A DNA stretch of 64,000 nt from Thioalkalivibrio paradoxus ARh 1 (GTDB lineage Bacteria > Pseudomonadota > Gammaproteobacteria > Ectothiorhodospirales > Ectothiorhodospiraceae), in assembly GCF_000227685.2 (NCBI RefSeq), contig NZ_CP007029.1:3012501-3076500 (forward strand), in the 5' to 3' direction. The notes beneath the pieces are model-generated. The model searched no databases and was not told the origin of the DNA. It saw only the letters and a program-made list of their open reading frames with translations. Both the position numbers and the translations under genes were made by a program. Of the stretch, positions 18,370-56,331 are shown one piece after another. Numbering within the stretch: position 1 is the first letter of the stretch; each line of letters starts with the position of its first letter.

Positions 18370-20943
<2,574 letters not shown>

Positions 20944-36412: not shown

Positions 36413-39606
<3,194 letters not shown>

Positions 39607-41253: not shown

Positions 41254-41268
41254 TGGCCGGCGGCCCCC

Positions 41269-41379
41269 TCAGGAAATCGGGCCGCGTACGACAGAACCAC
41301 GTGGCGCGGTCCGCACCCCGGCCCACCACGCAGCTCCACGTATCACGACCGGTATCGGGAAAAGCGTATCGATCGGCAT
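41269..41379 (-). CDS. Possible 36-aa small membrane protein upstream of glpD
   Basis: Frame MPIDTLFPIPVVIRGAAWWA then GVRTAPRGSVVRGPIS. An excellent ribosome site GGAGG lies six bases before the ATG, better than that of most genes here. The N-terminal half is hydrophobic and could be a short membrane helix; the rest is basic. The stop is 15 bases before the glpD GTG, so it could be a leader peptide or coupled small protein. No homologue recognised. The rest of 41254-41604 has no supported gene and must hold the divergent promoters. Confidence 0.35.
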   Translation of the reverse strand: MPIDTLFPIPVVIRGAAWWAGVRTAPRGSVVRGPIS

Positions 41380-41604
41380 GTCGTACCTCCGTCCATCCCA
41401 CGGCAACCGGCCGTGCACGCGGGCAGGATGCCACGGACGCCGTACCCGCGGGTATCGCGACCCGGCGCCACCGCCAGCCTCCGCCGCGATCCATGTCCGG
41501 CCGAACCCGGCACACCCGTCATCCGGTTCGGCGCACCGGGCTGGCAAGGACTATCGTGTCCGGGCAGGATACCCTCTGGCACAGCTCGGAAGGAGCGCGC
41601 ACCG

Positions 41605-44118
41605 ATGCACGGATCCAGCGACGAACGTACCCGAACCGGGATGAGCCCGGAGTCTCTGAAACGCGCCTTCGTCGACAGCATGTTCTACGTGCAAGCACGC
41701 TACTGGGAGGTCGCGACGCCGCACGACCTGTACATGGCCGCGGCGTACACGGTGCGCGACCGCATGCTGGAGCGCTGGATCCGCACCGCGGAAACCTACC
41801 GGAAGGCAGACGCACGCACGGTCTGCTACCTGTCCGCGGAATACCTGCTCGGCCCACAGCTCGGAAACAATCTGATCAACCTGGGAATCGTCGACAGTGC
41901 CCGCCAGGGCGCGCGGGATCTGGGAATCGACCTGCAGGAGATTCTGGACCAGGAGCCCGAACCGGGGCTCGGCAACGGTGGCCTCGGGCGGCTGGCCGCG
42001 TGCTATCTGGACTCGCTCGCGACGCTGTCGATCCCCGCGATCGGCTACGGCATCCGCTACGAGCACGGAATCTTTGACCAGAAGATCGTCGACGGCTGGC
42101 AGGTCGAGGACTGCGATCTGTGGCTGACCAACGGCAATCCCTGGGAGATCCCGCGCCCGCTGCTGCGCTACCCGGTGCGCTTCGGAGGGCACACGGAGCC
42201 CTACACCGACGAACACGGTCGGTTCCGGGTGCGCTGGGTACCGGAGCTGGACCTCTACGGGATGGCCTACGACACGCCGGTCCTGGGCTTTGGCAATGAC
42301 AACACCAACCTGCTGCGGCTCTGGCACGCGACCGCGGGCCGGTCGTTCGACCTGCAGGCCTTCCACAAAGGCGACTACTACGGCGCGGTGAACGCGAAAG
42401 TCGGGGCCGAGAACATCACCAAGGTGCTGTACCCGAACGACGAGCCGGAGGTAGGCAAGGAACTGCGCCTGAAGCAGCAGTATTTCTTTGTATCGTGCTC
42501 GCTGCAGGACATGGTGCGCGTGCATCTGCAGCACGCGCCGAACCTGGAGGGCTTCCACGAGCGATTCGCAGCGCAACTCAACGACACCCACCCGTCGATC
42601 GCAGTGGCCGAGTTGATGCGGCTGTGCCTGGACGAGCACGGCATGGACTGGGAGCGCGCCTGGGAGATCACCCGCCGGACCTTCGCCTACACCAACCACA
42701 CGCTGTTACCCGAAGCGCTGGAGACCTGGCCGGTGGAGTTGTTCGGACGGCTGCTCCCGCGCCATCTGGAGATCATCTACGAGATCAATGCCCGCTTCCT
42801 CGACGAACTGCGCATGCGCTACCCGTTCGACCCGGAGCGCGTCGCGCGCATGTCGCTGATCGAGGAGGGTCCGGTGCGCCGGGTGCGGATGGCCCACCTT
42901 GCGACCGTCGGCAGCTTTGCCGTGAACGGGGTCGCCGCAATCCACTCGGAACTCGTGAAGTCCACCGTGCTCCGGGATTTCCATGAACTGTGGCCGGAAA
43001 AATTCCACAACATCACCAACGGGGTCACGCCACGCCGGTTCATCCAGCTGAGCAACCCGGATCTGTGCGGCATCATCACCGATCTGGCCGGTCCTGGATG
43101 GGCGCGCGACGCCGAAAACCTGCGCACGCTCGAACCACACGCGGACGATGCAGCGTTCCAGCAGCGCTGGCAGGCAATGAAACGCGCTGCCAAGGAACGC
43201 CTGGCCGCGCGGATCCGGGAGGCCACCGGCGCGGTCGTCGACCCGCAGTCGCTGTTCGACATCCAGGTCAAGCGCATCCACGAATACAAGCGCCAGCACC
43301 TGAACCTGCTGCATATCGTGGCCCTGTACCACCGCATCAAGCAGGGCACCGACTCGGACCCGACCCCACGCACCTTCGTATTCGGAGGCAAGGCAGCCCC
43401 CGGGTATTTCATGGCCAAGCTGATCATCAAGCTGATCCACTCGGTCGCCGAAGTGATCAACCGCGACCCCGAGGTCAACCAGCGGCTGCGCGTCGTGTTC
43501 GTGCCGAACTTCAACGTGAAGAACGCCGAGTGCATCTACCCGGCCGCGGATCTGTCGGAGCAGATCTCCACCGCCGGCAAGGAAGCCTCCGGGACCGGCA
43601 ACATGAAATTCTCGATGAACGGCGCGCTGACCATCGGCACGCTCGACGGGGCCAACGTGGAGATTCGCGACGCGGTCGGCCACGAGAACTTCTTCCTGTT
43701 CGGGCTGACCGTCGCGGAGGTCGAGCGCACGCTCGCCGAGGGGTATCGCCCGTGGGAGTACTACCGCAGCCACGACGAGCTGCGCGAGGTGATCGACCTG
43801 CTGCGCTCGGGTCTGTTCTCGCACGGCGACCCCGACCTGTTCCGCCCGCTGACCGACAGCCTGCTGCAGCACGACCCCTACCTGCTATTGGCCGACTACC
43901 CGGCCTATGTCGAGGCCCAGGCGCGCGCCGGCGATGCCTTCCGGGATCCAGCGGGCTGGACGCGAATGTCGATCCTGAACGCCGCGCGCACCGGCTTTTT
44001 CTCGTCGGACCGGGCGATCCGCGAATACTGCCGGAACATCTGGCAGGTCGAGCCGATGCCGGTATCGCTGGCGGCCGGTAACGGATCCGTGCCTGCCGCG
44101 AGAGCGGATCCTGCCTGA
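41605..44118 (+). CDS. glgP: Glycogen/maltodextrin phosphorylase
   Basis: 837 aa, family length. N-terminal FVDSMFYVQARYWEVATPHD and CYLSAEYLLGPQLGNN, central EPEPGLGNGGLGRLAACYLD, and the pyridoxal-phosphate lysine in KEASGTGNMKFSMNGALTIG (Lys in GNMKF). It releases glucose-1-phosphate from stored glycogen. The ATG at 41605 has GGAAGGAG ten bases ahead. No glgA/B/C genes lie nearby. A hairpin overlaps the stop codon. Confidence 0.95.
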   Translation: MHGSSDERTRTGMSPESLKRAFVDSMFYVQARYWEVATPHDLYMAAAYTVRDRMLERWIRTAETYRKADARTVCYLSAEYLLGPQLGNNLINLGIVDSARQGARDLGIDLQEILDQEPEPGLGNGGLGRLAACYLDSLATLSIPAIGYGIRYEHGIFDQKIVDGWQVEDCDLWLTNGNPWEIPRPLLRYPVRFGGHTEPYTDEHGRFRVRWVPELDLYGMAYDTPVLGFGNDNTNLLRLWHATAGRSFDLQAFHKGDYYGAVNAKVGAENITKVLYPNDEPEVGKELRLKQQYFFVSCSLQDMVRVHLQHAPNLEGFHERFAAQLNDTHPSIAVAELMRLCLDEHGMDWERAWEITRRTFAYTNHTLLPEALETWPVELFGRLLPRHLEIIYEINARFLDELRMRYPFDPERVARMSLIEEGPVRRVRMAHLATVGSFAVNGVAAIHSELVKSTVLRDFHELWPEKFHNITNGVTPRRFIQLSNPDLCGIITDLAGPGWARDAENLRTLEPHADDAAFQQRWQAMKRAAKERLAARIREATGAVVDPQSLFDIQVKRIHEYKRQHLNLLHIVALYHRIKQGTDSDPTPRTFVFGGKAAPGYFMAKLIIKLIHSVAEVINRDPEVNQRLRVVFVPNFNVKNAECIYPAADLSEQISTAGKEASGTGNMKFSMNGALTIGTLDGANVEIRDAVGHENFFLFGLTVAEVERTLAEGYRPWEYYRSHDELREVIDLLRSGLFSHGDPDLFRPLTDSLLQHDPYLLLADYPAYVEAQARAGDAFRDPAGWTRMSILNAARTGFFSSDRAIREYCRNIWQVEPMPVSLAAGNGSVPAARADPA

Positions 44119-44138
44119 TGGGCAGGGCTCTGCCCATC
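44117..44138 (+). terminator. Terminator-like hairpin at the glgP stop
   Basis: Perfect 9-bp stem GATGGGCAG/CTGCCCATC with GGCT loop. It begins inside the TGA stop of glgP and lies between convergent genes. No U-tract, so intrinsic termination is uncertain. Confidence 0.5.
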
Positions 44139-44201
44139 GCCCTGCGCTGTTCCAACGATCCGCATCGAACTCCCCCCGCGTGCGGCGAAGGCGATGGTGG
44201 A

Positions 44202-45326
44202 TCACGCTGACCCGGCCGCAATGCCGGAACGGGCATCGGGCGCGAGCGGGAGCTTTCTCAAGGTCCGCTCGAGATTCGGCAGCAGGTCTCGACTCACCGG
44301 GAGGTCCGGAACCAGGCCGGCACCGGTACAGGTGCTGTGATCCGGGAAATGCACCTCGCTGTTGGTGAAGCGCAGCAGGGAGCCATCCGAAAGCCGCCGC
44401 TCGGTCTGGGCCTGGCACTTGCCGAAGGTGGGCTGCCCGGCCAGCCGGGCCCGGCGATGGAACTGCAGGATGCCCGCAAACACCTCGGCCGCACTGGCCG
44501 TGGCGGGCCCCACCAGCAGGAACAGCGGCGGCCCGTTCGGCGATCCCCGGGTCGCGTGGTAGGTCGCGGCCGTCTCGCCTCGCCCGCGGACGCTGCACAG
44601 TTCAGTCCCGGGCTCGAGCAGCAGACCGGCCATGTCGATCGCCTCGTAGAGATCCCCTCCGCCGGCATAGCGCAGGTCGATCACCACCGGCTCGTCGCCG
44701 CCGGGCAGGCGCTCCAGCGTTGCCGCCAGCGCCGTGCGCGTCCGCCCCGCCGCAAAGTCGGTGATCCGCAGCACCGTGGTGCCGCCGACGTCCCAACGCT
44801 CCACGTCCAGCGAACGCGCGTGTTCGCGCAACAGCGTCACGTCGTACCGCAAGGGTGCGCCGGGCCGGACCAGCAGCAGCCGGACCCGGCTACCAGGCTC
44901 GCCCCGGACGAGCCCGGCGACCTGGACCGCATCCATTCCCGACACCGAACGGCCACCGACCGCGAGCAGTTGCACCCGATCGCGGAATCCGGCCCGGGCC
45001 AGCGGCCCGCCCTGCCGCGGCAGCAGCCACGCGCCGTCGGGGTCGACCTCGAGCTCCGCCGCGATCCCCGCCCCGGCAGGCATATCTCCGGTACCCGGGG
45101 CCGGAAACCAGTCGGCGTAGGGATCGAGCTGCCGGAGGTCGCCACGGAGATCGTCGAACGCCAGGGCCTCCAGCACCCCGGCGTCGGGCTCCGGCAGGAG
45201 TTCCCGGCCCAGGATTTCGCGAATCTCCCCGAGCGGCGCCGCCGGCATCGGCGGGGCCCCGGCCGCAAGCCCGACGAGCAGCCCGAACAGCAGCAGCCGG
45301 CGGCCGACCGCCGGGCGCCGGATCAA
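44202..45326 (-). CDS. Secreted PDZ/S41 (C-terminal-processing-type) protease
   Basis: 374 aa from a TTG start at 45326 that overlaps the upstream stop as TTGA; it gives a good signal peptide (RRPAVGRRLLLFGLLVGLAA). PDZ-like region about 85-165 (GPLARAGFRDRVQLLAVGGR), then the S41 fold: PVVIDLRYAGGGDLYEA, the nucleophile Ser in VGPATASAAEVFAGIL and the general-base Lys in QPTFGKCQ. It is probably a periplasmic Ser/Lys protease. Last gene of the VWA-Tag-like operon, coupled to the large secreted protein, which might be its substrate or partner (inference). Confidence 0.82.
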   Translation of the reverse strand: MIRRPAVGRRLLLFGLLVGLAAGAPPMPAAPLGEIREILGRELLPEPDAGVLEALAFDDLRGDLRQLDPYADWFPAPGTGDMPAGAGIAAELEVDPDGAWLLPRQGGPLARAGFRDRVQLLAVGGRSVSGMDAVQVAGLVRGEPGSRVRLLLVRPGAPLRYDVTLLREHARSLDVERWDVGGTTVLRITDFAAGRTRTALAATLERLPGGDEPVVIDLRYAGGGDLYEAIDMAGLLLEPGTELCSVRGRGETAATYHATRGSPNGPPLFLLVGPATASAAEVFAGILQFHRRARLAGQPTFGKCQAQTERRLSDGSLLRFTNSEVHFPDHSTCTGAGLVPDLPVSRDLLPNLERTLRKLPLAPDARSGIAAGSA

Positions 45327-47689
45327 TGTCCCTCGTCCATCAGCAACATGCCCAGATCGTGGCCATTGACCTGGAACTCGCCCAGGCTGTTCGCGTGCAG
45401 ATGATAGAAATGCACCGGCTCGCCCGCGTCGTTCTCGCGCTCCTCGCCGGCCATCTTCAGGATCGTCGCGATCCCCATGATCTGCTGCCGTTCCTGGTCG
45501 TTGTCCGCAAGTTCCAGTGCAAGATCCAGCAGCGTGTCGAAGTTCCGGATCTGCAGTTCCATCTCGCTGCGCAGCACGCCCGATCCGACCTCCTCGGTGT
45601 CGACCCAGCTGTTCCCGTGCAGGCGCAGCCCCCCGACCGGCAGGTCGATCACGAATTCCTGGATGTCGATCCGGGTGTCGTTTTCCAGCATCGCCGCCAT
45701 CGCGTCCTGCGCAATCTCCGCGCCGTTTCCGGCCGCACCCTGCAGCGCGGCTCCGTCTGCGAGGAACGCCCCCGGCAGACGCGACGCGACCAGATCCAGC
45801 ACCAGCTCCTGCGGGAACAGCTCGTCCGGGATCGGGGTCATTCCCATCGGCAGGCCCGCGATACCGCGATGGCGGTAGGCCAGCGAAACCCCCGGAGCCG
45901 GGGTATCCAGGTCCGAAAGTCCCAGGCCGAACTCGAACTGCTCGAGACCGAACGGCGGTTCGTCGGCGAGGTACTCGGCGACCATCTGGCCGTTGGCGCC
46001 ATGCAGCGAAAGACCGACGCTGAAACCGCCGAGGATCTCCTGCGCCGACGCGATCAGATCGTCCTCGGCGAGTTCCCCCGTCATCAACGACGCCAGCCCC
46101 AGCTGCAGCAGCGTCATCGGCGCGATGCGGTCCAGACGCAGATTCCATTCGGCTGCATCGAGATCGAACGCGTACTCCTCGTCGCCGAAGCTCCAGCCCC
46201 GGCCCTCGAGGTTGGCCCAGAGGTCGCGCTTCAGCTCACCGGCCGCGGACGGAACGAACCCGGTGTTCAGCGCCGCACGCGCCACGCGCAGGTGCCCCAC
46301 CTCGCCCGGCGGGGCCTGTACCGCCAGATCCTCCACCTCGATCCGGGACTGCATCCCCCCCAGCGCGGTCAGCAATTCGGACAGCAGCTCGGCGGGATCG
46401 CGTTCCATCAGCGTCTCGGGTGCCGCGGCCATGTCGCCGAATGCCGCGAGTCCCGCGAGATCGACGTCCTCATAGTCGACGCCGACCGACAGCCGGCCCA
46501 GATGCCCGATCGGTTCCGCGGCAGCACTCGCCAGCGACACGCCTTCCACTACGAACGCCAGCGGCCCGGTCACCACGCCGGGTTCCCGTTCGTCGAGATC
46601 CAGGGTCAGCGCGAGGCGCTGCGCGTCGAGCCGACCCGGTTGCTCCGGATCCAGCGCCGCTGTCGGCGCCTCGGACTCGAGAACGAGATCGCCGAGATGC
46701 ACCGCCAATTGCAACGGGCTCGCGAGATCACCGGCCCAGACACCGCTCATCGAGCGCTCGCCGATGCTGATCCGTGCGGCAAGGTCGCCCTTCCGGTCCC
46801 GGAGCGGGACGTCGCCCGGCAATTGCACGGTCACCTCCCAGCGCTCGCTCCCCAGCGGCCGCAGCTCGGCCGCCAGGTCCCCTAGCTCTGCGGTGACGTC
46901 ATCGGGCGCCTCCAGCGTCAGCGACGGGAGCAGCAACCCGATCCGGCCGTCCGGGTGTTCGTCGATGCCGATTTCCCCACCGAGAACCCACGGGGACCCC
47001 GGCTCGGTGAACAGCCGGTCCAGGGCCTCGCGCAGCGCCAGCGCCGGCTCGGACAGTGCCGGGGCGTCCCGCGAAACGCCGTCGCGGTCGGCTGCGACCC
47101 GCCCCAGCGCCAGACGGTCATCCGCGTCCGGCGACGCACTCGGACCCGCCTCGGCTTGTTCCAGCGCGCCTCGGGTTTCCCGAACGCCGCCGTGCAACTC
47201 CAGCGCCAGCAACGTTCCACCCGCATCGCGCAGCACGGCCCGGCCCTCTCCGCGCAGCAGGCCCGGGCCAGCCGGCTCGAGTTCGTGGCCGGCCTGCAGC
47301 GCAGCCCAGTCGAGGTAGTCATGCTCCTGCAGCAGAGCGAGCAATCGCTCCAGTGCGTCGGGATCGGCATCGAGGCGGCCTGCCTCCGCGTCCGCCTGCA
47401 GCGCCTCGACTTCCGGAATGCCCGCTGCCAACAGGTCGACACCGGCACCCCGTAGCGACAGGGCCAGCGCGCCGAACTCGTCGGGCAGCCGCCCGAACGC
47501 GCGCAATGCCCGGACCGTGGTGTGTCCCCCGGATGCCATGTCGAGCAATTCCGCCGGTCCCGCCGCGCGCTCGACCTGCCCGTCGACCTCGATCACCTCG
47601 AGGCGTTCGGTTGCATGGGCCACCCCGGCAGACACCAGCAGCAACGCCAGCCAACCGTACAGCAGCCCTAGACCCGCCCGTTTGTTCAT
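45323..47689 (-). CDS. Large secreted protein of unknown function
   Basis: 788 aa. Signal peptide with core LGLLYGWLALLLVSAGVAHA. The mature part is acidic, rich in Leu/Ala/Asp/Glu, with repeated beta-type stretches (for example GEVGHLRVARAALNTGF, ELQIRNFDTLLDLALELAD) and no cysteine-rich or metal motif. The C-terminal ~250 residues recall DUF2125/AsmA-like periplasmic beta proteins, but weakly. No function is claimed. The start at 47689 was chosen for the signal peptide. Its stop overlaps the protease start, so the two are coupled. Second-last gene of the operon, 131 bases after the second lipoprotein. Confidence 0.75.
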   Translation of the reverse strand: MNKRAGLGLLYGWLALLLVSAGVAHATERLEVIEVDGQVERAAGPAELLDMASGGHTTVRALRAFGRLPDEFGALALSLRGAGVDLLAAGIPEVEALQADAEAGRLDADPDALERLLALLQEHDYLDWAALQAGHELEPAGPGLLRGEGRAVLRDAGGTLLALELHGGVRETRGALEQAEAGPSASPDADDRLALGRVAADRDGVSRDAPALSEPALALREALDRLFTEPGSPWVLGGEIGIDEHPDGRIGLLLPSLTLEAPDDVTAELGDLAAELRPLGSERWEVTVQLPGDVPLRDRKGDLAARISIGERSMSGVWAGDLASPLQLAVHLGDLVLESEAPTAALDPEQPGRLDAQRLALTLDLDEREPGVVTGPLAFVVEGVSLASAAAEPIGHLGRLSVGVDYEDVDLAGLAAFGDMAAAPETLMERDPAELLSELLTALGGMQSRIEVEDLAVQAPPGEVGHLRVARAALNTGFVPSAAGELKRDLWANLEGRGWSFGDEEYAFDLDAAEWNLRLDRIAPMTLLQLGLASLMTGELAEDDLIASAQEILGGFSVGLSLHGANGQMVAEYLADEPPFGLEQFEFGLGLSDLDTPAPGVSLAYRHRGIAGLPMGMTPIPDELFPQELVLDLVASRLPGAFLADGAALQGAAGNGAEIAQDAMAAMLENDTRIDIQEFVIDLPVGGLRLHGNSWVDTEEVGSGVLRSEMELQIRNFDTLLDLALELADNDQERQQIMGIATILKMAGEERENDAGEPVHFYHLHANSLGEFQVNGHDLGMLLMDEGH

Positions 47690-47820
47690 GCCGTTCTCTC
47701 TCTCCGTGTCGTGATGGATGCAGCGGCGACCCAAGGGCCGCCACCGGCGAATATCGGTCCCGCCGGCACGCCGAGCGTTCCGGTGTCGACCATGTGCCCG
47801 GGCGCGCTGGATCGCGCCTC

Positions 47821-48375
47821 TCAGCGCGCCAGCTCGAGCGATAGTTCCAGCAGCATTTCGTATTCCCGCTGCAAGGCCCTGCGCTGTTCCTCCAGCTGCC
47901 GTCGGCGCAGTTCCACCGCCGGGTCGGCTCCACCTCCCGGCCCGACGCCTTCCAGAGCGTCCAGACTGGATTGCTGTTCGCGCATGCCGCCTTGCAGCGA
48001 AACGAGACGCGTCTGCAGCTCCTGAACCCGCTGATCGCCGCTGCCGTGACGCGCTTCCAGGTCATCGACGGTTTGCGAGAGGTCCGCCACGTCCTGCTGC
48101 ATCCGCGCCAGGCGGCTGCGCTCGGCGGCCACCTGCTGCTCGCGCGTCTGGTGCAGGGCATCGAGTTCGCTGCGCTCGGTCTCGAGTTCTGCCTGCACCG
48201 CACGCAGGCGTTCCAGCCGCTCCTCGCGCTCGCGCACCCGCGCATCGTACGCCCCGCTGTGGATCCCGGCGACGCCACCGAAGAACCCGCCTTCACGCGG
48301 GTCGGTCGGCGCGCTGGCGCAGCCGGCGGCCAGCCCCGCCGCAGCCAGCGCGGCCCACCATGACGGCCGCCTCAT
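47821..48375 (-). CDS. Coiled-coil lipoprotein
   Basis: 184 aa. Signal peptide WAALAAAGLAAGC with lipobox AAGC; a short Gly/Pro linker; then long heptad-rich coiled coil (about 45-130: EREERLERLRAVQAELETER, QQDVADLSQTVDDLEARH) and a second helix at the end (LRRRQLEEQRRALQREYEML). Position +2 after the Cys is Ala, so outer-membrane sorting is expected. Start overlaps the stop of the glycine-zipper lipoprotein as ATGA. Function unknown; probably a partner in the TagQ-like role. Confidence 0.78.
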   Translation of the reverse strand: MRRPSWWAALAAAGLAAGCASAPTDPREGGFFGGVAGIHSGAYDARVREREERLERLRAVQAELETERSELDALHQTREQQVAAERSRLARMQQDVADLSQTVDDLEARHGSGDQRVQELQTRLVSLQGGMREQQSSLDALEGVGPGGGADPAVELRRRQLEEQRRALQREYEMLLELSLELAR

Positions 48376-49013
48376 ACCGACAGCCTCTGGTCGATCCGCG
48401 CGAGCTGCGTACTGCCCTCACGCAACGCCTCGAGGTTCTGTTGCAGCGCCTGTACCTCGCGCTCGAGGCGGACGATATAGGGGTCGTCGGCAGCCCGATT
48501 CGCGCGCTCTTCCTGCAGGATCACCGTCTGGATCTCGTACTCCGCCGCCAGCGTTTCCTCCAGCTCGCGGCTGGTCGCGATGTGCTGTTGCAGTTCGTTG
48601 CGTTTCGCCTGCAGTCCGGCCTTCTGTACCTGCCCGGAATCGTAGCGCGCACGCAATTGCTCGGCCTCATGCTCGAGGCGCACGATGTCCTGGCGCACGC
48701 GCGCATTGTAGGCGGTCGTGGTCCGGTTGAACTCGTCGACCCGCGCGATCTCGGCGTCCAGGAATTCCTCGGTGGTCGCATAGGCCTGCTTGCGTTTCGC
48801 GATCTCGTTGCCCACCGCGTAGCCGGCGCCGGCGCCGATCGCGGCGCCGATCAATGCACCGCGTTCACGGTCGATCGCATAGCCGAGCAGCCCGCCGACC
48901 ACCGCGCCGACGCCCGCACCCTCGGCCCGGGTGCGTTGCTCGTCCGTGGCGGCGCAGCCTGCCACCGCCGTCGCCACCAGGCCCGCGGCCACGATCCTGT
49001 TCAGTCTGTTCAT
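48372..49013 (-). CDS. Glycine-zipper coiled-coil lipoprotein (TagQ position)
   Basis: 213 aa. Lipoprotein signal peptide IVAAGLVATAVAGC (lipobox VAGC); glycine-zipper segment AEGAGVGAVVGGLLGYAID and GALIGAAIGAGAGYAVG (about 33-70), then coiled coil to the end. It lies 35 bases after the FGE-like gene, the place tagQ holds in the Pseudomonas tagT-tagS-tagR-tagQ cluster; TagQ is the outer-membrane lipoprotein that holds TagR. Sequence kinship with TagQ is not shown, only position and lipoprotein nature. Start at 49013 chosen for the signal peptide. Confidence 0.8.
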   Translation of the reverse strand: MNRLNRIVAAGLVATAVAGCAATDEQRTRAEGAGVGAVVGGLLGYAIDRERGALIGAAIGAGAGYAVGNEIAKRKQAYATTEEFLDAEIARVDEFNRTTTAYNARVRQDIVRLEHEAEQLRARYDSGQVQKAGLQAKRNELQQHIATSRELEETLAAEYEIQTVILQEERANRAADDPYIVRLEREVQALQQNLEALREGSTQLARIDQRLSV

Positions 49014-49048
49014 CGTCTCCTGCCCTCGCTTGATCGCAGATACCAACA

Positions 49049-50764
49049 TTAACCCTCGAATCCAGCGAAGCGTTCCCGGAACGCTTCGCGCCACCGTTCG
49101 GGCTCTGCCCGGCGCTGCTCGGCGTACTCCTCGAGATGCTGGCCGAGCAATTCGAGCACCGCGCGCTCGCGCGGCGGCGGTTCGGCCGCGCGCAAGGTCT
49201 CCAGCGCCTGCTCGATGTAGACGATCTCGTAGTCTCCGAGCCGCGCCACCCGGTCGCGATACCCCTGCAGCTGTTCCCCGACCGCGGTCTCCAGATCCCG
49301 CATCGAAGACTCGACCGCGGCCACCTGCTCCTGGTAGCGGCTCGAGATCTCCAGCAGCTGCCGGGCGCTGTCGAGCGTGCGCTCGAGGCGCTCCAGACGC
49401 GACAGATAGACGCTGAGGTTCACGCCATTGCGGGCGGCGTCCTGCGCGAGGCTGCGCGCGCTCTCCCGTTGCGCGAGCTCGAGCCGCTCCCGGGCGCGGT
49501 CCATGTATTCCTGGACCGCGGTCAGCGGCTCGCGCAGATCGGCATTCTGATCCATCAGCCGCGCCAGGATAGGCTCCACGGTGCCCAGCTGGACGCTGGC
49601 CTGCGCGACCAGGTTGTCGAGCGTGCGGCCGACCGGCATCGTACGCCGGATGTCGGCCCGGTAGTCCTCGTACTCGCGTTCGATCTCGGCGCGCTGGCTC
49701 GACGACACCACCACGTTCGCGCCGATCGCGAGCCGAGCGCCGGTATTGAACGAGCGCCGCTCCTGGACCCGCTGGCGGTCGGGATCCCAGGCGTAGGCAT
49801 CGAGTTCGGCCCGAAGCGCTGTGCGCATGTCCGCCGCCGGGGTCGAGACGCTACCGCCGCGCACCGCGACCCCGCCCGGCTTGCCCTGCCAGATCTCGGG
49901 CCGAAAAAGCCCTGCGGTCATTTCCTGGGCGTTGCCGTGCAGGTCGTGGAACCCCAGCCGGTTGGCTGCGCGCAGACCCACCGGGCGCAGCTGGTGCCGG
50001 GCATTGCCCAGGTGCCAGGCGTGCTCGTTCAGCTCCCGCGCGGGAAACGGCAGCCGGTCGTCGAACGTGCCTGCCTCCAGCGCCGGCAGTCCGCCGCGCG
50101 CGACGAATTCCCATTCCTCCTCGGTGGGCAGGCGCAGGAAACCGGGCACCCCGTCCACCGTGGGCAACGACTCCAGCCGCTCCGGGTGTTCCGGGTCGAA
50201 CAGCCAGTGGTTGTAGCGGCGAATGAAGACCTCGATGTCCTGGTGGCTGACGAAAGTCAGCGGCTGCATCAGCGCATCGCGCAGCGCGCGCCCCCGCAGC
50301 CCGGCCAGATTGCGGTCCTCCGGATCCCCGGACGTTTCCAGCAACGCATCCAGCCCCATCACCGCGAGATACTGTCCCTTGGTCAGCTCGTACTTCGCGA
50401 GCACGATCTCCCAGCCCTCGCCGTCGGCCGCCGGGAACGAACCGCTGATCTGGGTGCGCTGCAGCCCCTCGAAAATCCCGCCGGACGCGTCCCCGAGCTG
50501 GATCACGCGTTCCGGGTCTCCCCAGAACCCGCTCCCCGGAACGCGCGCGCGGCGGAAGACCATTTCGGCGCCCTCCGGCATCGGAAGTACCAGATCCCCG
50601 GCAGCGGGCTTCGGGTTGTACACCGTCGCCGGCGGCGGCTCGGCGTGCAGCGGCGTGACCGGCCAGCCAAGGCCGACGAACAACGCGACGATCGGGAACA
50701 ACCACCGGCACGCCCCGCCCGGAACGACTCGCCGCAGGTCGCGCAGGATGCCGGCTACGGGCAT
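49049..50764 (-). CDS. Periplasmic SUMF1/FGE-fold protein, TagR-like
   Basis: 571 aa. Signal peptide or anchor (CRWLFPIVALFVGLGWPVTP, about 19-38), an FGE-sulfatase (SUMF1) domain (about 60-330) with GFLRLPTEEEWEFVARGG, FHDLHGNAQEMTAG and VAVRGGSVSTP, then a long coiled coil (about 345-571). There is no cysteine in the mature protein, so the cysteine-dependent formylglycine chemistry of true FGE is impossible; it is a binding version of the fold. In P. aeruginosa TagR has this fold and stimulates PpkA from the periplasm. The ATG at 50764 is favoured; a GTG at 50833 is possible. Confidence 0.82.
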   Translation of the reverse strand: MPVAGILRDLRRVVPGGACRWLFPIVALFVGLGWPVTPLHAEPPPATVYNPKPAAGDLVLPMPEGAEMVFRRARVPGSGFWGDPERVIQLGDASGGIFEGLQRTQISGSFPAADGEGWEIVLAKYELTKGQYLAVMGLDALLETSGDPEDRNLAGLRGRALRDALMQPLTFVSHQDIEVFIRRYNHWLFDPEHPERLESLPTVDGVPGFLRLPTEEEWEFVARGGLPALEAGTFDDRLPFPARELNEHAWHLGNARHQLRPVGLRAANRLGFHDLHGNAQEMTAGLFRPEIWQGKPGGVAVRGGSVSTPAADMRTALRAELDAYAWDPDRQRVQERRSFNTGARLAIGANVVVSSSQRAEIEREYEDYRADIRRTMPVGRTLDNLVAQASVQLGTVEPILARLMDQNADLREPLTAVQEYMDRARERLELAQRESARSLAQDAARNGVNLSVYLSRLERLERTLDSARQLLEISSRYQEQVAAVESSMRDLETAVGEQLQGYRDRVARLGDYEIVYIEQALETLRAAEPPPRERAVLELLGQHLEEYAEQRRAEPERWREAFRERFAGFEG

Positions 50765-50822
50765 GGCGACACCGCGCGGCTGCCCGGCCCCTCCGGCTTT
50801 TGCGGCGTGGATCGGTGCGACA

Positions 50823-52661
50823 CTACTGTTCACGGATGGCCTCCGCGGGATCGATTCGAGTGGCCCGCCAGGCGGCGGCCAGCGACGACAATACGGCAAG
50901 GAGCAGGGTCGCGGCCACCGCTGCCAGCAGGTACCCCGGCGGCAACGTACAGAACTTCTCGCCGGGGGCGAGATCGGCCGCAAACGCGCGGTTGATCGCC
51001 ACCGCAAGCCCCAGATAGCTGGCCATGCCCGCCGCCAGGCCCAGCCCCGCGATGATCACGCCCTGCGCTACCGGGAAAAAGAACACGTGGCGGCGCGCGA
51101 GTCCGACCAGACGCAGCACCCCGAGATCGCGGCGGCGGCGCTCTACCGCCGCATACAGGCTCGCGACCAATACCGCGACGCCGCCGCTGACCCCGAGCAG
51201 CGCAATCAGCCAGAACAGCCGGCCAAGTCCCGCGTCGAGCACCTGGATGCGCTGGATCGCGTCGACCTCGGCGATCACCTCGATGCCCTGGTCGGTCAGC
51301 CGGCGATACAGCTCGGGAACGTCGTCGATACCCCGCGCGTACATCCGGAACCCGCGATAGCCGCCGCGCTGCATCAAGAAACGCTCCTGGTCCGGATCGT
51401 ACTCGAGCGCCCGCTGCTGCGCGGTGCGCAGCACGCCGAGCAGCTCCGCCGGCACCAGCGGCCGTTCCAGCGGGCTGGCACCGACGATCCGCAGCGGGAA
51501 TGCCAGCGGCGCAACCCCCTCCGCAGTCACTTCCACCCGAGCGTCGCGACCGAGATCCGCGAGCGCCGTCGTCAGCTGCCCATCCGCGGCGACGCGCCCG
51601 GTGAAACGGCCCCACGGCAGTGCCGGCAGACCGAGCCGCTCGGCGTCGGCCCGATCCAGTGACACCCCGACCGGGTGCAGCTCGGTGGTGCCGGCTGTCA
51701 GCCGAACATCCTGCACATACGGCAGCAGCACGCGGTCGCGGCCGCGCAGCTTCTGTTCCACCGCCCGTATGCCGGACAGGGTCACCGTGCCCCCCGGCGT
51801 GAACAGGTCGTACCCCTGCCACTCCCCGGGCGGGGACCAGCCAAGGCGCTGCGCCAGCCCGTCCGTGTCGAGTTCGCCGATACGCGCGAAGCCGGTGTTG
51901 ATGATCAGTCCGGTGCGTTCGATCGGCGGCAGCGGCTCCGGGAGCAGCAGCACCACGCCGTCGAAACTCAGGAACGGATCCGGGCTGTCGCCGGGCCAGC
52001 CGCGCGCCGGTGCCCCGTAGCCTTCCTTGTAGGCTTCCACATCCAGCACGAACGGCAGCGGCGCATAGATCCGCGCCAGCGAACCGGCCCGCGGGGGCAG
52101 CACCGCGGCCACCGTGAGCGCAGCTTCCGCCGCTTCGCCGCGGCCGCCGCGTGCACGGGTGACCCGGCCGGTGATCTCCGCGCCTGCGGACACACCAAGC
52201 CGGTGTGCGGCCTCCGCGGTCAATACCACCTCGCCGTCCCGCGGAACGGGCGCATCGTTCTCGAGCAGCAGCGGATCGCCGGGGGCAGTGGGTACCAGGT
52301 CGTAAAGCGCGCGCTCGCGTTCGCGCTCCGGGTGTGGCACCTGTAGCACCGACGACAGCGGCAACACGGTCGGCGTCAGGAATCCGACGCCGGGCCAGCG
52401 GCCGGCATCGACGAACCACTGGGGGGAATACTCCCGGGTCTGCGCCGGGCGCAGCTCCCGGAACACGGGGTCCTCGACCAGTCGCTCGCGCAGCGTTTCG
52501 ATGGTGCCGTGCTTCAGCCCGAGCAATACCAGCAGCGGCGCGATCACCGCGGCGAGCGCGATCACCAGGCACAAGGTCAGGATCCACTCGTGCCGCAGGT
52601 TCGCCGCGGCGAGCGACGGGATCAGGCGCAACGGCCGGGGGTGCGCAACGGGATGAGGCAT
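50823..52661 (-). CDS. ABC permease, FtsX/MacB-LolC type (TagS-like)
   Basis: 612 aa. One membrane helix near the N-terminus (LTLCLVIALAAVIAPLLVLL, about 29-48), a ~430-residue periplasmic domain, then three C-terminal helices (about 485-600) with the FtsX-type segment RRRRDLGVLRLVGLARRHVF and end DPAEAIREQ. This is the topology of mechanotransmission or lipoprotein-sorting transporters rather than substrate channels. It is three bases after the ATPase gene. In the Pseudomonas cluster the matching pair is TagT/TagS. Confidence 0.88.
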   Translation of the reverse strand: MPHPVAHPRPLRLIPSLAAANLRHEWILTLCLVIALAAVIAPLLVLLGLKHGTIETLRERLVEDPVFRELRPAQTREYSPQWFVDAGRWPGVGFLTPTVLPLSSVLQVPHPERERERALYDLVPTAPGDPLLLENDAPVPRDGEVVLTAEAAHRLGVSAGAEITGRVTRARGGRGEAAEAALTVAAVLPPRAGSLARIYAPLPFVLDVEAYKEGYGAPARGWPGDSPDPFLSFDGVVLLLPEPLPPIERTGLIINTGFARIGELDTDGLAQRLGWSPPGEWQGYDLFTPGGTVTLSGIRAVEQKLRGRDRVLLPYVQDVRLTAGTTELHPVGVSLDRADAERLGLPALPWGRFTGRVAADGQLTTALADLGRDARVEVTAEGVAPLAFPLRIVGASPLERPLVPAELLGVLRTAQQRALEYDPDQERFLMQRGGYRGFRMYARGIDDVPELYRRLTDQGIEVIAEVDAIQRIQVLDAGLGRLFWLIALLGVSGGVAVLVASLYAAVERRRRDLGVLRLVGLARRHVFFFPVAQGVIIAGLGLAAGMASYLGLAVAINRAFAADLAPGEKFCTLPPGYLLAAVAATLLLAVLSSLAAAWRATRIDPAEAIREQ

Positions 52662-52664
52662 CGT

Positions 52665-53414
52665 TCAGGCGGCCTCTAAGCATTGCGAGCGCGTTTCCTG
52701 TTCGGAAACCTGCTCCATCCGGAAGCCGTAGGTCCGGTCGGCATGAGCCCCGATCAGCTCCACGTCGTGGGTGACCACGACCACCGCGACGCCGCGCTCG
52801 CGCGCAAGCGCCTGAAGGTCGGTGAAGATCGCCACAGCGCGCGCCTTGTCGACCGCCGCGGTCGGCTCGTCGGCCAGCACCAGCCGGGGCCCGTGCAACA
52901 ATGCGCGCAGAATCGCAACGCGCTGGCGCTGGCCGATCGACAGCGCGTCCGGCATCCGCCGCAAGCAGCCGTCCAGGCCCAGGCGCCGGGCCAGTTCGGC
53001 CGCCGCGCGGTCGGGGCTCGGCAGGCCCTTGACCCGCGCCGGCAACGCGATGTTGTCGGCAACGCTCAGGAACGGCAGCAGGCCGCCGGTCTGCAACACA
53101 TAGCCCAGGGAGTCGCGGCGCAATGCCGCGAGCCGGGTCTCCGCACCGGAGGCCCACAGCGCGCGCACGTCGGTCGCCGGCGTCTCCGGATCGAACTGCA
53201 TTTCGAAGCGTTCGACCCGGGTCGGTTCCATCACCAGCGCGAGCATGTCCAGCAGCGTGCTCTTGCCGCAGCCGCTGTCGCCCACCACCGCCACCAGTTC
53301 CCCGGGGCCGACGTGCAGTGCCGGAACGGCGAGTTCGAACACGCTCTCGCCCTGTGCCCGGCGCTTGACCGCCCCCTGCATCAGCGCCAGGGGCGGCTGT
53401 GCTGCGGAACGCAC
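52665..53414 (-). CDS. ABC ATPase of the TagT/LolD/MacB class
   Basis: 249 aa from a GTG at 53414; a Met at 53381 is the alternative. Walker A GDSGCGKST, Q-loop LQTGG, signature SIGQRQR (a variant of LSGGQ), Walker B LVLADEP, D-loop AAVDKA and switch VVTHD. The length and Q-loop sequence fit the LolD/MacB/FtsE class that partners FtsX-type permeases. It sits 11 bases after the VWA gene and three before its permease. It likely powers a conformational signal or lipoprotein transfer at the inner membrane. Confidence 0.9.
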   Translation of the reverse strand: MRSAAQPPLALMQGAVKRRAQGESVFELAVPALHVGPGELVAVVGDSGCGKSTLLDMLALVMEPTRVERFEMQFDPETPATDVRALWASGAETRLAALRRDSLGYVLQTGGLLPFLSVADNIALPARVKGLPSPDRAAAELARRLGLDGCLRRMPDALSIGQRQRVAILRALLHGPRLVLADEPTAAVDKARAVAIFTDLQALARERGVAVVVVTHDVELIGAHADRTYGFRMEQVSEQETRSQCLEAA

Positions 53415-53425
53415 CTCGCCCCCGG

Positions 53426-55531
53426 TCAGGGGAGGTAGTCCAGATGCAGCGGGTAGACCATGTCGCGATCGGGGTCGGCATCGTTCATCCGGAACCAGGC
53501 GTCGACCTGTTCGTTGATCGCCCGGTACTGTTCCAGCTTCGCCAGAATGCTCCATTCGAGCTGCGAACGCTGCTCGGTGGTCATGCTCGCGAACATCTCG
53601 TCGTTCAGCGACAGAATGTCGCTGCGATACGGCAGGCTCTGAATGAACGCCGGCAACAGACCGGCGTCGGCCAGATCGCGGGCCTGGCCGAGATCTTCCG
53701 GGCGCTTCATCGCCTGCCCGGACACGCTCTGCAAGGCCTCGAAGAACTGGGCCTGCGTGACTTCGGCGCGCATCAGCGCCTGGACCACCTGGTCGAGCGC
53801 CTGCGCCAGGCTGCTCAGCTGCTCGCGGGTCACCAGCACGCGGACATCGAGCGCACGGTCGACGGGATGGACGAGATCGCGGTCGAGCACCCAGGCGACG
53901 ATATCCTTCGGGGGATTCGCGGAACGCCCCAGGTACTCGACCAGCGCCGCCTCCCAGAGCCGGTCTACCGTCGTCAGGGTTTCCAGCGGCGGCAGTTCCT
54001 CGTCGGCCACCGGCTCGTGTTCGCCGGCGGTCGTCGCCAGCCTTTCGATCAGTCCGTTCGCCACGCTGTCGATCAGCCCGTAGAAGGCCCGATCGTCGAA
54101 GGCGTCGACGCTGTCGTAGGCCGATTCGTCACGCGAGCCCCGGATACGCGCGAGATGACGGAACTGGGGCTCGGCGATCGGGTGATCCTCGGTCGCGCGG
54201 GGGTCGAGCAGGTGGATTGCGTGCAGATGGACCTGAGCATCGTCCAGCTCCCGGCGCAGGTCGATCTCGTCCTTTCCGGTGATGTTCTGCGGGTGTCCCT
54301 TCGGGTGCGAGCTCGCGTCGCCGATCAGGATCATGAAGCGCAGCGCGCCGTCGCGCCACTGCGACTGCAGGGCCGTGTCGACACCGGCAAAGACTTCCTC
54401 GGCATAATCCAGGCTGCCGACTTCGGTCGCGCGGACTTCGTCCTCGAGCAGTTCGGCCAGCGTCGCACTGTCGACGAGTTCGGGCGTCCAGTTCCGGGTG
54501 TCGTACTCGAGCTGCGGGATCACTTCGATCGAATCGCGGAAGGTCACCAGGCCGAAACGCACCCGGTCGTCGGTCATTCTTCGGAACCGGGCAGCGGTGC
54601 TCGCAACCGCGTCGCGGGTCATGTCGATGAACGGCTGCATGCTGCGCGTGGTGTCGATCACGAACACGATGTCGGCCTGCAGGTCCGAGCGCCGCTCGGC
54701 GGCACCGTCGACCCGCGCGACCCGGGCCTGCTCGCGGTACTCGGCCGCATCCAGGGTATCGGCACCGCGGGCACCGGGAACCGCCGCCGCGATCTGCAGC
54801 AGGCGGGCGTCATCGCCGTCGATCTGGGTCTGCTCCCACTCCAGGATCGGCAGCACATAGAACTGCCGGGTGATGTCGACGAAACGCTGCGGTTCCATGC
54901 TGACGACTTGTTCCGGCACGTCGCCGTCGTCGATCGCACTGTACAGCGTGCGAGCGCGCCCGGCCATGTCGAAGTCGTCGACCAGCCCGGCCAGATCCCG
55001 GTAGTCGCGGAACATCAGCACCGGGTTGCGGCCCTCGATCGGCCCGCCCGGGTGGGTATAGGACACCAGCAGCGCCTGCCGCCACTCCAGCACGTCGCGC
55101 GCCTGCATCCAGCCATCGGCTTCGGCGCGCGTGCGCCCGACCCGATACCAACCGGCCGGATCGGCTGCATCGCTCAGATCCAGGTCCTGCCGTTCAAACA
55201 CGTACATCGGGTGAAACGACGGGACGTTCGCGATGCGGATGCCGGCGGGATCGGCGTTGCGGTCTGCATACACATGCGAGAACGGCCGGGGCAGCACCCG
55301 CAACGGCAACTGCGTCGCCTCCTCGATGCAGACCTGCCCCTCCGCACACAGGATCGGGTCCTCGGGCGCCGCAGGCTCATGGCCATGGGTGCCCTCGAGC
55401 GCCGACAATCCCGGAGACGGCGGCGCATGGCCAGCGGTGCCTTCCAGCTGATCCAGCAGTGACTGCCCCGAAGCGACCATGGGCAGTGCGGCCAGCGCTG
55501 CCGCCAACCCGAGTCCGATCCACCTGTTCAT
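53426..55531 (-). CDS. Secreted von Willebrand A protein, kinase-less PpkA-like
   Basis: 701 aa. Signal peptide (WIGLGLAAALAALPMVASG), a linker, an SH3-like region (about 60-230: LPLRVLPRPFSHVYADRN, GWYRVGRTRAEADGWMQARD), VWA domain (about 285-480) with a metal site DTTRS (D-x-T-x-S variant) and IGDASSHPKG, and a helical C-terminus. The region before and including the VWA domain resembles, from memory, the periplasmic half of the T6SS kinase PpkA; no Ser/Thr kinase domain or membrane helix is present. First gene of the operon with tagT/S/R-like genes in the same order. Start at 55531 is set by the signal peptide. Confidence 0.82.
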   Translation of the reverse strand: MNRWIGLGLAAALAALPMVASGQSLLDQLEGTAGHAPPSPGLSALEGTHGHEPAAPEDPILCAEGQVCIEEATQLPLRVLPRPFSHVYADRNADPAGIRIANVPSFHPMYVFERQDLDLSDAADPAGWYRVGRTRAEADGWMQARDVLEWRQALLVSYTHPGGPIEGRNPVLMFRDYRDLAGLVDDFDMAGRARTLYSAIDDGDVPEQVVSMEPQRFVDITRQFYVLPILEWEQTQIDGDDARLLQIAAAVPGARGADTLDAAEYREQARVARVDGAAERRSDLQADIVFVIDTTRSMQPFIDMTRDAVASTAARFRRMTDDRVRFGLVTFRDSIEVIPQLEYDTRNWTPELVDSATLAELLEDEVRATEVGSLDYAEEVFAGVDTALQSQWRDGALRFMILIGDASSHPKGHPQNITGKDEIDLRRELDDAQVHLHAIHLLDPRATEDHPIAEPQFRHLARIRGSRDESAYDSVDAFDDRAFYGLIDSVANGLIERLATTAGEHEPVADEELPPLETLTTVDRLWEAALVEYLGRSANPPKDIVAWVLDRDLVHPVDRALDVRVLVTREQLSSLAQALDQVVQALMRAEVTQAQFFEALQSVSGQAMKRPEDLGQARDLADAGLLPAFIQSLPYRSDILSLNDEMFASMTTEQRSQLEWSILAKLEQYRAINEQVDAWFRMNDADPDRDMVYPLHLDYLP

Positions 55532-55630
55532 CGTGCTTTCCCCCTGGCGACTGTGACGTTTCCCAATGTCCGGAACGGTCCGGCGACGATCATGGCAGCG
55601 CCCGCCTTGCGGTCGGCCCGGCGCACCCTC

Positions 55631-55690
55631 CCGATGCCATCGGCAGATCCCGCACTGCCTGGCAGTATACCCCCACCCCGTATGGTTCAA
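55631..55690. promoter_or_regulatory. Twin palindromes and candidate promoter of the VWA operon
   Basis: Two perfect 13-base palindromes, CCGATGCCATCGG (55631-55643) and ACTGCCTGGCAGT (55654-55666), lie 23 bases centre to centre. The second overlaps a minus-strand TATACT (55669-55664); TTGAAC (55690-55685) upstream of it is 15 bases away, slightly short for a -35. They may be operators between the VWA operon and the divergent zinc-ribbon gene. A 10-base direct repeat CCGTATGGTT recurs at 55678 and 55756. Confidence 0.4.
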
Positions 55691-55794
55691 TAGCGCCCCG
55701 GCCGCATTCGGAACGCGGCGACCGGGAGCCGGTGCAGCCATGCGGCGACGTGCTACCGTATGGTTAGGGGTTGCTTGGTCGAGGAGGCGAGGAA

Positions 55795-56331
55795 ATGAAC
55801 GAGAACGACAGCCTGCAGGACGACCGCCTGGAACAGGCGTACGGCCGGATGCTGCAGAAGGTGTCCGAGGATCTGGAGGCGTTGTCCGACCGCAGTAGCG
55901 TGGCGCTGAACGATTTGCTGGAACACGCCCGCAAGGAAGTGGTGGATGCCGAACACCTGACCGCCGACGAGGCGGACAAGGTCACCGAGTTCGTGCGCCG
56001 CGATCTGCACGACCTGGGCGCATTCCTGGACTCGGGCACGCAGGACTGGCGCGACTGGCTGCGGATCGACCTGGCGCTGATCGAGGCCAGCTTGCTCAAT
56101 GCGCTGAATACGGTCGCCGACCGCACCAAGGTCGAACTGGCGCAACTGGCCACGCGGGCCTACCGCGTCGGCGAATGGCACACGGGCGAGGTCACCGGGC
56201 CCGGCGAACTCACCTGCCTGTCCTGCGGCGGCACCGTGCACCTGTCCCGGGTGGGCAAGATTCCGCCCTGCCCACACTGCCGGCACACCCGCTTCCACCG
56301 CCGAGGGCCGGCACCCGAGGGATCGGAATAA
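55795..56331 (+). CDS. Zinc-ribbon protein, DUF1451 family
   Basis: 178 aa. Helical N-terminal two thirds and a C-terminal zinc ribbon: CLSCGG (C-x2-C) and CPHCRHTRF (C-x2-C), about residues 142-166, preceded by GEWHTGEVTGPGELTC, the DUF1451 pattern. Function unknown. GAGGAGGCGAGG directly ahead fixes the ATG at 55795. It converges with lnt and diverges from the VWA operon. Confidence 0.85.
   Translation: MNENDSLQDDRLEQAYGRMLQKVSEDLEALSDRSSVALNDLLEHARKEVVDAEHLTADEADKVTEFVRRDLHDLGAFLDSGTQDWRDWLRIDLALIEASLLNALNTVADRTKVELAQLATRAYRVGEWHTGEVTGPGELTCLSCGGTVHLSRVGKIPPCPHCRHTRFHRRGPAPEGSE

Follow-up and report, generated by a model that had tools for sequence, protein, structure and literature searches.

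An operon of Thioalkalivibrio paradoxus ARh 1 resembling the Pseudomonas TagQRST-PpkA sensor, without kinase or type VI secretion genes and with an adjoining protease gene

The window analyzed here, a stretch of 64,000 nt from Thioalkalivibrio paradoxus ARh 1 (contig NZ_CP007029.1, positions 3,012,501 to 3,076,500), carries a minus-strand operon with the appearance of a complete relative of the Pseudomonas machinery that responds to outer-membrane damage by triggering a spear-like weapon, but devoid of weapon and kinase and with the gene of a periplasmic protease adjoining (Table 1). A secreted vWA protein is followed by a TagT-like ABC ATPase, a TagS-like permease, a TagR-like protein of the SUMF1 fold, and two lipoproteins, LP1 and LP2. 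The first five genes are separated by 11, 3, 58, and 35 bases, respectively, and LP1 and LP2 share 4 bases, the start of LP2 overlapping the stop of LP1. Recomputation of the genes between 47821 and 55531, including their strand, order, coordinates, and gaps, gave the same layout as an original prediction made from the sequence letters alone. The operon extends beyond the limit drawn there, to 44202, and comprises eight genes (44202–55531): the gene of the secreted protein P7 comes 131 bases after LP2, and the TTG start of the S41 protease gene sits in a TTGA overlap with P7. No sigma-70-like promoter was found in 44000–56000, and terminator-like sites did not exceed the level of shuffled sequence. 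NCBIfam yielded no match for the vWA protein, TagR, and the 788-aa P7.

Table 1. Genes of the vWA-Tag operon in the window, in the order of transcription.
Feature	Positions	Strand	Pfam result
vWA protein, secreted, 701 aa	53426–55531	minus	VWA over cut-off
TagT-like ABC ATPase, 249 aa, GTG start	52665–53414	minus	ABC_tran over cut-off
TagS-like permease, predicted LolC/E, MacB, FtsX fold, 612 aa	50823–52661	minus	FtsX over cut-off
TagR-like SUMF1/FGE-fold periplasmic protein, 571 aa	49049–50764	minus	FGE-sulfatase over cut-off
Lipoprotein LP1, glycine-zipper	48372–49013	minus	three glycine-zipper families over cut-off
Lipoprotein LP2, coiled-coil by eye	47821–48375	minus	no match over cut-off
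P7, secreted 788-aa protein, N-terminal TVRAL domain (~residues 28–135)	45323–47689	minus	
S41 protease with PDZ domain, TTG start	44202–45326	minus	PF03572, 103.6 bits

The kinship of these proteins to the sensor of the type VI secretion system (T6SS) was evaluated on Pseudomonas-like loci, with L171 as the reference. This locus has the Pseudomonas H1-type order tssK-tssL-tssM-tagF-PP2C-(kinase+vWA, 1016 aa)-TagT-TagS-TagR-lipoprotein, and its fused kinase-vWA protein (Pkinase, 157 bits), judged by architecture and gene order, is presumably PpkA. The vWA protein of the window matches the fused protein of L171 at 29% over residues 40–701 (E 3e-69), TagT its counterpart at 48% (E 5e-50), TagS at 36% over residues 13–226 (E 2e-30), and TagR at 26% over residues 50–555 (E 9e-26), all E values being derived from a small database. 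Judged from these alignments, the vWA protein is a homolog of the periplasmic half of PpkA, and the other three main proteins are homologs of TagT, TagS, and TagR of Pseudomonas-type T6SS loci. The resemblance to these four proteins on which the original prediction was built thus proved strong and significant when tested against the Pseudomonas-like loci L170–L175, and TssC, SrfB, and a Ser/Thr kinase over the cut-off are all missing from the one-contig genome, so that neither finding named beforehand as refuting the prediction was made. The order vWA-TagT-TagS-TagR is more than chance, because it recurs at loci of many bacteria. Since Tistrella encodes kinase and vWA as separate genes, located beside tssM, tagF, and PP2C, the vWA half is able to exist as a secreted subunit of its own; a kinase fused to vWA was found only at T6SS loci (L054, L170–L175).

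The vWA protein of the window is secreted and contains no kinase domain, as had been proposed. It consists of a signal peptide, two LEGTxGH motifs, and an SH3b-like N-terminal region, all three recognized by eye, followed by the vWA domain and a C-terminal region; the DxTxS...D metal-site residues of vWA are conserved, and a PDB sequence search retrieved nothing at E 0.1. LolCDE, MacB, and FtsEX constitute the type VII ABC superfamily, and the two Tag components correspond to this superfamily, TagT being a LolD/FtsE-like ATPase and TagS having a predicted LolC/E, MacB, or FtsX fold whose nearest structural matches are LolE and LolC. A periplasmic insert at about residues 230–430 of TagS is specific to the branch described below. 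For TagR, only three weak SUMF1-fold matches were obtained in the PDB sequence search. The activity of formylglycine-generating enzyme (FGE) depends on a catalytic Cys pair; as the only Cys of the window's TagR is residue 19, within the signal peptide, this protein is probably not a catalytic FGE. TagR of L027 and L032 has no Cys at all, and that of L013, in the same branch, has seven, at positions not compared with FGE. LP1 is TagQ-like on the basis of its glycine-zipper and Rick_17kDa_Anti (17-kDa-antigen) Pfam matches, and it matches the lipoprotein of L054 (E 1e-5), not the lipoproteins of Pseudomonas-like loci. S41 proteases use a Ser/Lys dyad, which is present in the window protein and kept in 15 of the 15 S41 proteins of its branch.

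The window genome consists of one contig of 3.76 Mb and is listed as 100% complete. Within the 64 kb, the previously noted absence of pppA and tss genes was borne out: among the locus profiles (twelve tss/TagH models, TagF, PP2C, kinase, SrfB, SrfC, and Srf partner, with no model for VgrG or Hcp), the sole match was TssH at 18370 on the minus strand, which is probably ClpB. TssC was not found by a profile search of the whole genome, for which the E. coli control was positive; it is present in 3 of 19 carrier genomes and was not found in the other 16, several of which are incomplete metagenome-assembled genomes (MAGs). SrfB (PF07520) was matched in none of the 19, with no control genome positive and a score of 1359 bits for the SrfB of L064 under the same model, and SrfC had no profile match in the window, the only part of the genome searched for it. 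The original prediction had also allowed for a Ser/Thr kinase gene at another place in the genome. Such kinases do occur in the wider group, with at least one Pkinase match over the Pfam cut-off in 16 of the 19 carrier genomes. In the window genome, however, none exceeds the cut-off, and the one match below it (23 bits) lies in an open reading frame (ORF) that by eye resembles lipopolysaccharide-core kinases and stands beside a glycosyltransferase; G010, a close relative on one contig, has no Pkinase match whatsoever. Because no Ser/Thr kinase over the cut-off exists in this one-contig genome, the proposal fails: it is refuted for the window genome at the sensitivity of Pfam (PF00069), and we give it next to no credence.

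The distribution of the module was surveyed in an even sample of the class Gammaproteobacteria, comprising 370 genomes with at least 90% completeness requested, 29 of which encode the vWA protein. This sample is free of the bias of a separate set of loci, the best 80 of 548, which leans toward the window's kin. Neighborhoods of the 29 carriers were typed by tblastn and profiles, some of the stretches being short because of small contigs (e.g., L148, L163, L167, L168); one copy of G406 was represented by L034, whose contig coordinates are identical. No kinase or tss profile match was obtained in the fetched stretches of any of them; G123 gave a 48-bit tblastn match to the Tistrella kinase protein, which the kinase-domain profile did not confirm. 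The commonest form, present in 22 carriers (e.g., L143–L144, L146–L154, L157–L162), is a bare vWA-TagT-TagS set without profile matches to T6SS, Srf, TagR, or lipoprotein components in the fetched stretches. It is mostly preceded by the gene of a protein of about 220 aa with one transmembrane (TM) stretch, recognized by eye, and a SEL1-like domain (hereafter TM-SEL1), which was not detected in G309 and G360; the genes of G199 are spread over several contigs. Three carriers have the Srf type (G037 by the Srf partner protein alone), the window is the only one with the window type alone, G160 and G406 combine the window type with a bare copy, and G123 has TagR with a TM-SEL1 partner. T6SS-type loci were contributed by a phylum sample of 397 genomes, which yielded six fused kinase-vWA loci (L170–L175). 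By these counts, the vWA protein of this family is usually free and has no kinase. The kinase-less condition seen by the original prediction is thus real, but it is no oddity of this genome.

Relatives of the window operon are joined to outputs of several kinds. The TM-SEL1 profile matches the Tistrella kinase protein in the portion behind the kinase domain (E 4e-15) and the protein preceding vWA in Srf loci (E 4e-10 and 4e-8; small database in each case). The SEL1 label derives from a Pfam match below the cut-off (20 bits) in the Srf partner of L047, the bare-set protein of L144 being without a Pfam match. From these profile similarities, kinase, Srf partner, and TM-SEL1 seem to have a common periplasmic tail behind the TM stretch and to differ in their cytoplasmic cargo. 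Two Methylomonas MAGs (L052:8861-11968 and L056:8434-11538) encode an AAA ATPase domain N-terminal to vWA in one protein, which represents another output swap; TagTS is divergent in both. Kinase, Srf partner, or TM-SEL1 was found in 95 of 109 loci outside the window's branch, a comparison set that includes close relatives and in which one genome may figure under two handles. Within the stretches of the 24 branch loci, in contrast, the TM-SEL1 and Srf-partner profiles matched none and the kinase profile matched one (L040). The branch is set apart by the missing TM output subunit and the addition of a periplasmic protease. The main idea of the original prediction, inward signaling without phosphorylation through a cytoplasmic partner of TagT or a TM subunit encoded elsewhere, would agree with the cytoplasmic outputs of the relatives (kinase, SrfB/SrfC, and the AAA ATPase fused to vWA), but the lack of TM-SEL1 and Srf-partner matches at the branch loci and the periplasmic nature of the recurrent additions make it improbable.

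Of the 24 loci counted to the branch, 17 are represented in the vWA tree, and the remaining seven (L019, L021, L031, L035, L037, L044, L155), thinned out or cut as near-copies beforehand, were placed by similarity. The trees result from quick searches, are unrooted, and carry only Shimodaira–Hasegawa-like approximate likelihood ratio test (SH-aLRT) support, so that gain or loss of the kinase is not readable from them. In the vWA tree (132 rows thinned to 82), the window and its kin form a separate group of 19 rows from 17 loci with SH-aLRT support of 100 and a branch length of 1.24. The same grouping appears in the TagS tree (72 rows; group of 16 rows, SH-aLRT 98), and in the TagT tree (69 rows) it has SH-aLRT support of 99 if L028 is included. 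An insert of 190–207 aa at window residues 230–430 is present in 22 of 23 TagS proteins of the branch (the 23rd, from L043, is cut by a contig end), as opposed to at most 6 aa in 101 others. The S41 gene occurs in 15 of the 24 branch loci and in none of the 109 others, according to a profile built from the window protein alone, which a distant S41 could escape. Five of the nine loci without it (L021, L029, L034, L043, L155) end short of its expected position or inside the preceding gene. Since branch members are scattered over Ectothiorhodospiraceae, Sedimenticola, Wenzhouxiangella, Halomonas, Azospirillum, Mesorhizobium, and Desulfacinum (Thermodesulfobacteriota), horizontal spread is suggested. 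That the operon might be the relic of a lost T6SS with retained sensor genes would fit the homology, the gene order shared with T6SS loci, and the TssC of three carrier genomes; it was rejected because the branch stands apart from the T6SS members in the vWA and TagS trees, has its own insert and companion gene, and retains the protease dyad and the vWA site residues. The failure to find TssC in 16 carriers, several of them incomplete, points in the same direction, and we consider this origin very improbable.

Gene arrangements vary within the branch. A full window-type module including S41 is found in L013, on a plasmid of Azospirillum brasilense in a stretch without annotated genes. The S41 gene is also present in the cultivable species Ectothiorhodospira shaposhnikovii and Halomonas cerina. 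Two tandem vWA genes precede TagT in L038 and L040, and in L028 (Thiorhodospira sibirica) LP2 lies upstream, followed by vWA and TagT, with neither TagS nor TagR within 10 kb and without S41. The Sedimenticola loci L033, L035, L037, and L044 encode two secreted proteins directly upstream of vWA, one of about 1000 aa without Pfam match and another, of about 2105 aa, that contains Ig and carboxypeptidase-regulatory repeats.

A further companion is the N-terminal domain of P7, about 105 aa long and named TVRAL after a motif, which is common to other large secreted proteins. It is combined there with NHL propellers, ankyrin repeats, a SEL1-like tail (by eye), or regions that in some proteins lack a Pfam name, and is encoded beside the module or away from it. 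In Thiorhodospira, for example, a secreted TVRAL protein of 1472 aa, which consists mostly of ankyrin repeats, is encoded distant from the module (L130:4440-8858). Of 18 carriers searched, 9 gave a TVRAL match, as opposed to none of four same-genus non-carriers, and in the class sample it was detected in 3 of 370 genomes, all of them carriers; in this class scan at most 13 candidates were scored per genome, so that misses are possible. A confident AlphaFold model of the domain (predicted local distance difference test score 88) had no Foldseek match in the PDB within the E 0.001 threshold, the best match being at E 2.6, which is not proof of a new fold. One to three LEGTxGH copies stand at the mature N-terminus of the vWA proteins of the window, L021, L027–L032, and L041, looser LEGG/LEGS forms occur in Sedimenticola and L034, and L185 has other repeats. 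The motif is missing from the vWA proteins of L013, L038, L040, L042, L043, and L185 and from those outside the branch. Because motif and TVRAL are both largely confined to one sub-branch, their co-occurrence is not independent evidence for docking.

These large secreted proteins bear on the possibility of Lol- or MacB-like export, according to which TagTS would extract lipoproteins or large TVRAL proteins or carry them to the outer membrane or the surface, with the vWA protein and TagR as periplasmic chaperones and S41 as a maturation protease. Export would be in keeping with the nearness of the TagS fold to LolE and LolC, with the two lipoproteins of the operon, and with the large secreted proteins near the module at several branch loci, including TVRAL proteins and the 2105-aa Ig/carboxypeptidase-regulatory protein of Sedimenticola. 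However, the one studied relative, TagTSRQ of P. aeruginosa, acts in sensing according to the available parts of two papers (PMC6657622, PMC11881912), and the 22 bare sets are without profile matches to LP1, LP2, and TVRAL in fetched stretches that are partly short. We therefore hold export to be possible but unlikely.

In our estimation the chances are even that the eight genes encode a trans-envelope vWA-TagTSR(Q) complex of a branch of its own, with no tie to a T6SS or kinase and with a periplasmic output that is most likely the S41 protease. Established among its elements are the membership in this family, the lack of kinase and T6SS, the Lol/MacB/FtsX fold of the predicted permease, the conserved metal-site residues of vWA, and the TagS insert and S41 protease specific to the branch. 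LP1, LP2, and TagR would monitor the outer membrane from the periplasm, and TagTS would spend ATP to push or pull periplasmic partners by mechanotransmission, as FtsEX and MacB do. The vWA protein, docked via its SH3b-like region and the repeated N-terminal motif, could relay this state. Since the TM output subunit that relatives have (kinase, Srf partner, or TM-SEL1) is absent here, the periplasm would be the site of output, most likely through switching or targeting of the S41 protease, and the large TVRAL proteins might be clients or scaffolds. A bolder version, which we put forward tentatively and think less probable, holds that what the Tag-type ABC sensor controls is periplasmic proteolysis and not a kinase, that the LEGTxGH copies of vWA dock TVRAL scaffolds (beta-propeller, ankyrin, SEL1-like, and others), and that TagTS plus vWA form a general envelope-sensor core to which different outputs can be attached (kinase, SrfBC, AAA ATPase, TM-SEL1, S41), of which the Pseudomonas T6SS sensor would be only one.

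Several observations weigh against a periplasmic output of a kinase-free complex. The search for TM-SEL1 was confined to the loci, one of the 24 (L040) has a kinase-FGE gene on the opposite strand, about 1.9 kb downstream, and, given the Pkinase matches in 16 carrier genomes, the kinase-free state is established only for the window genome, G010, and the incomplete G040. L038, L040, and L042 have room for an S41 gene, yet lack it, and the fold of TagS is also that of lipoprotein exporters. As for TVRAL, some of these proteins are encoded far from the module. Five of the nine positive genomes gave query rows, without which the count among carriers falls to 4 of 13, and these four include G010, which hardly differs from the window. 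Likewise, the window and G406 gave query rows in the class sample, which leaves one new positive among 368 genomes, G160, of the same genus as G406.

On the chromosome, the operon block is bounded by leuS (36928–39519, minus) and a DUF1451 gene (from 55771, plus), which lie 16.25 kb apart; the interval 39519–55771 also carries a FAD oxidoreductase and a glycogen phosphorylase. A plus-strand ORF of 2371 aa (37003–44118) was rejected as a gene, its first part being antisense to LeuS; its final part, from 41602, is the glycogen phosphorylase in the same frame. In 12 of 16 module-less loci of the same genus, leuS starts within about 1.3 kb of the DUF1451 gene, and the 16.25-kb block is therefore an insertion relative to most congeners examined; the other four had no leuS match within the flank examined. 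The vWA gene is present in 3 of 25 same-genus genomes searched. In one of these, G008, the insertion site may differ, because the DUF1451 flank shows neither leuS nor vWA.

In the available part of one study, TagQRST is described as restricted to Pseudomonas (PMC6082577). Our observations contradict this, both for the TagTS-vWA core and for the Srf and window types, in which TagR and lipoproteins accompany it. T6SS-free Tag modules with srfBC are not new: they are already in print in a 2013 study (PMC3608642), the only one found to describe a T6SS-free Tag neighborhood, whose available part reports tagQ, "ppkA", srfB, srfC, and mostly tagRST together in host-associated Deltaproteobacteria, only one of which has T6SS machinery. 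The vWA systems of a further study, as far as its available part goes, apparently involve another gene set (PMC7159879). Neither the S41-linked branch nor the TVRAL domain was found described in the open-licence literature, which was not searched by the names S41 or TVRAL. The vWA-TagTS core occurs in many proteobacteria, in most of the sampled cases with no adjoining T6SS gene, and sensing can thus be studied without the weapon. With weapon and kinase absent and a periplasmic protease encoded alongside, the window operon suggests a general envelope device of bacteria whose wiring to outputs differs from one bacterium to another, the T6SS case being one wiring among several. The window's branch would provide a kinase-free version with a candidate enzymatic readout, S41, which would make ATP use by TagTS directly testable in haloalkaliphiles.

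Among known systems, the TagQRST pathway of P. aeruginosa responds to outer-membrane damage, as stated in the available part of PMC11881912. TagQRST-PpkA shares with the window the order vWA-TagT-TagS-TagR-lipoprotein and homologous proteins, as tested against the Pseudomonas-like loci, but the window lacks the kinase half, PppA, TagF, and tss genes, and adds the 200-aa TagS insert, a second lipoprotein, S41, and the TVRAL protein, on a separate branch. The srfB-srfC-linked module of Enterobacter, Klebsiella, and many others likewise has a free kinase-less vWA protein, TagT, TagS, TagR, and lipoproteins; there, however, SrfB, SrfC, and a TM partner precede vWA, S41 is missing, and TagS is short. 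In the T6SS locus of Tistrella mobilis (pTM1) the vWA protein is also separate and secreted, whereas the adjoining genes encode a separate kinase whose tail is TM-SEL1-like, as well as PP2C, TagF, and Tss components. LolCDE, MacB, and FtsEX correspond to the window in the predicted TagS fold and the LolD/MacB/FtsE-type ATPase, a likeness of sequence and predicted fold alone, and differ in ectodomain and partners. Finally, CtpA-LbcA is an S41 C-terminal processing protease with a lipoprotein partner, and the window operon resembles it in combining a PDZ and S41 protease that has the Ser/Lys dyad with lipoproteins encoded in the same operon.

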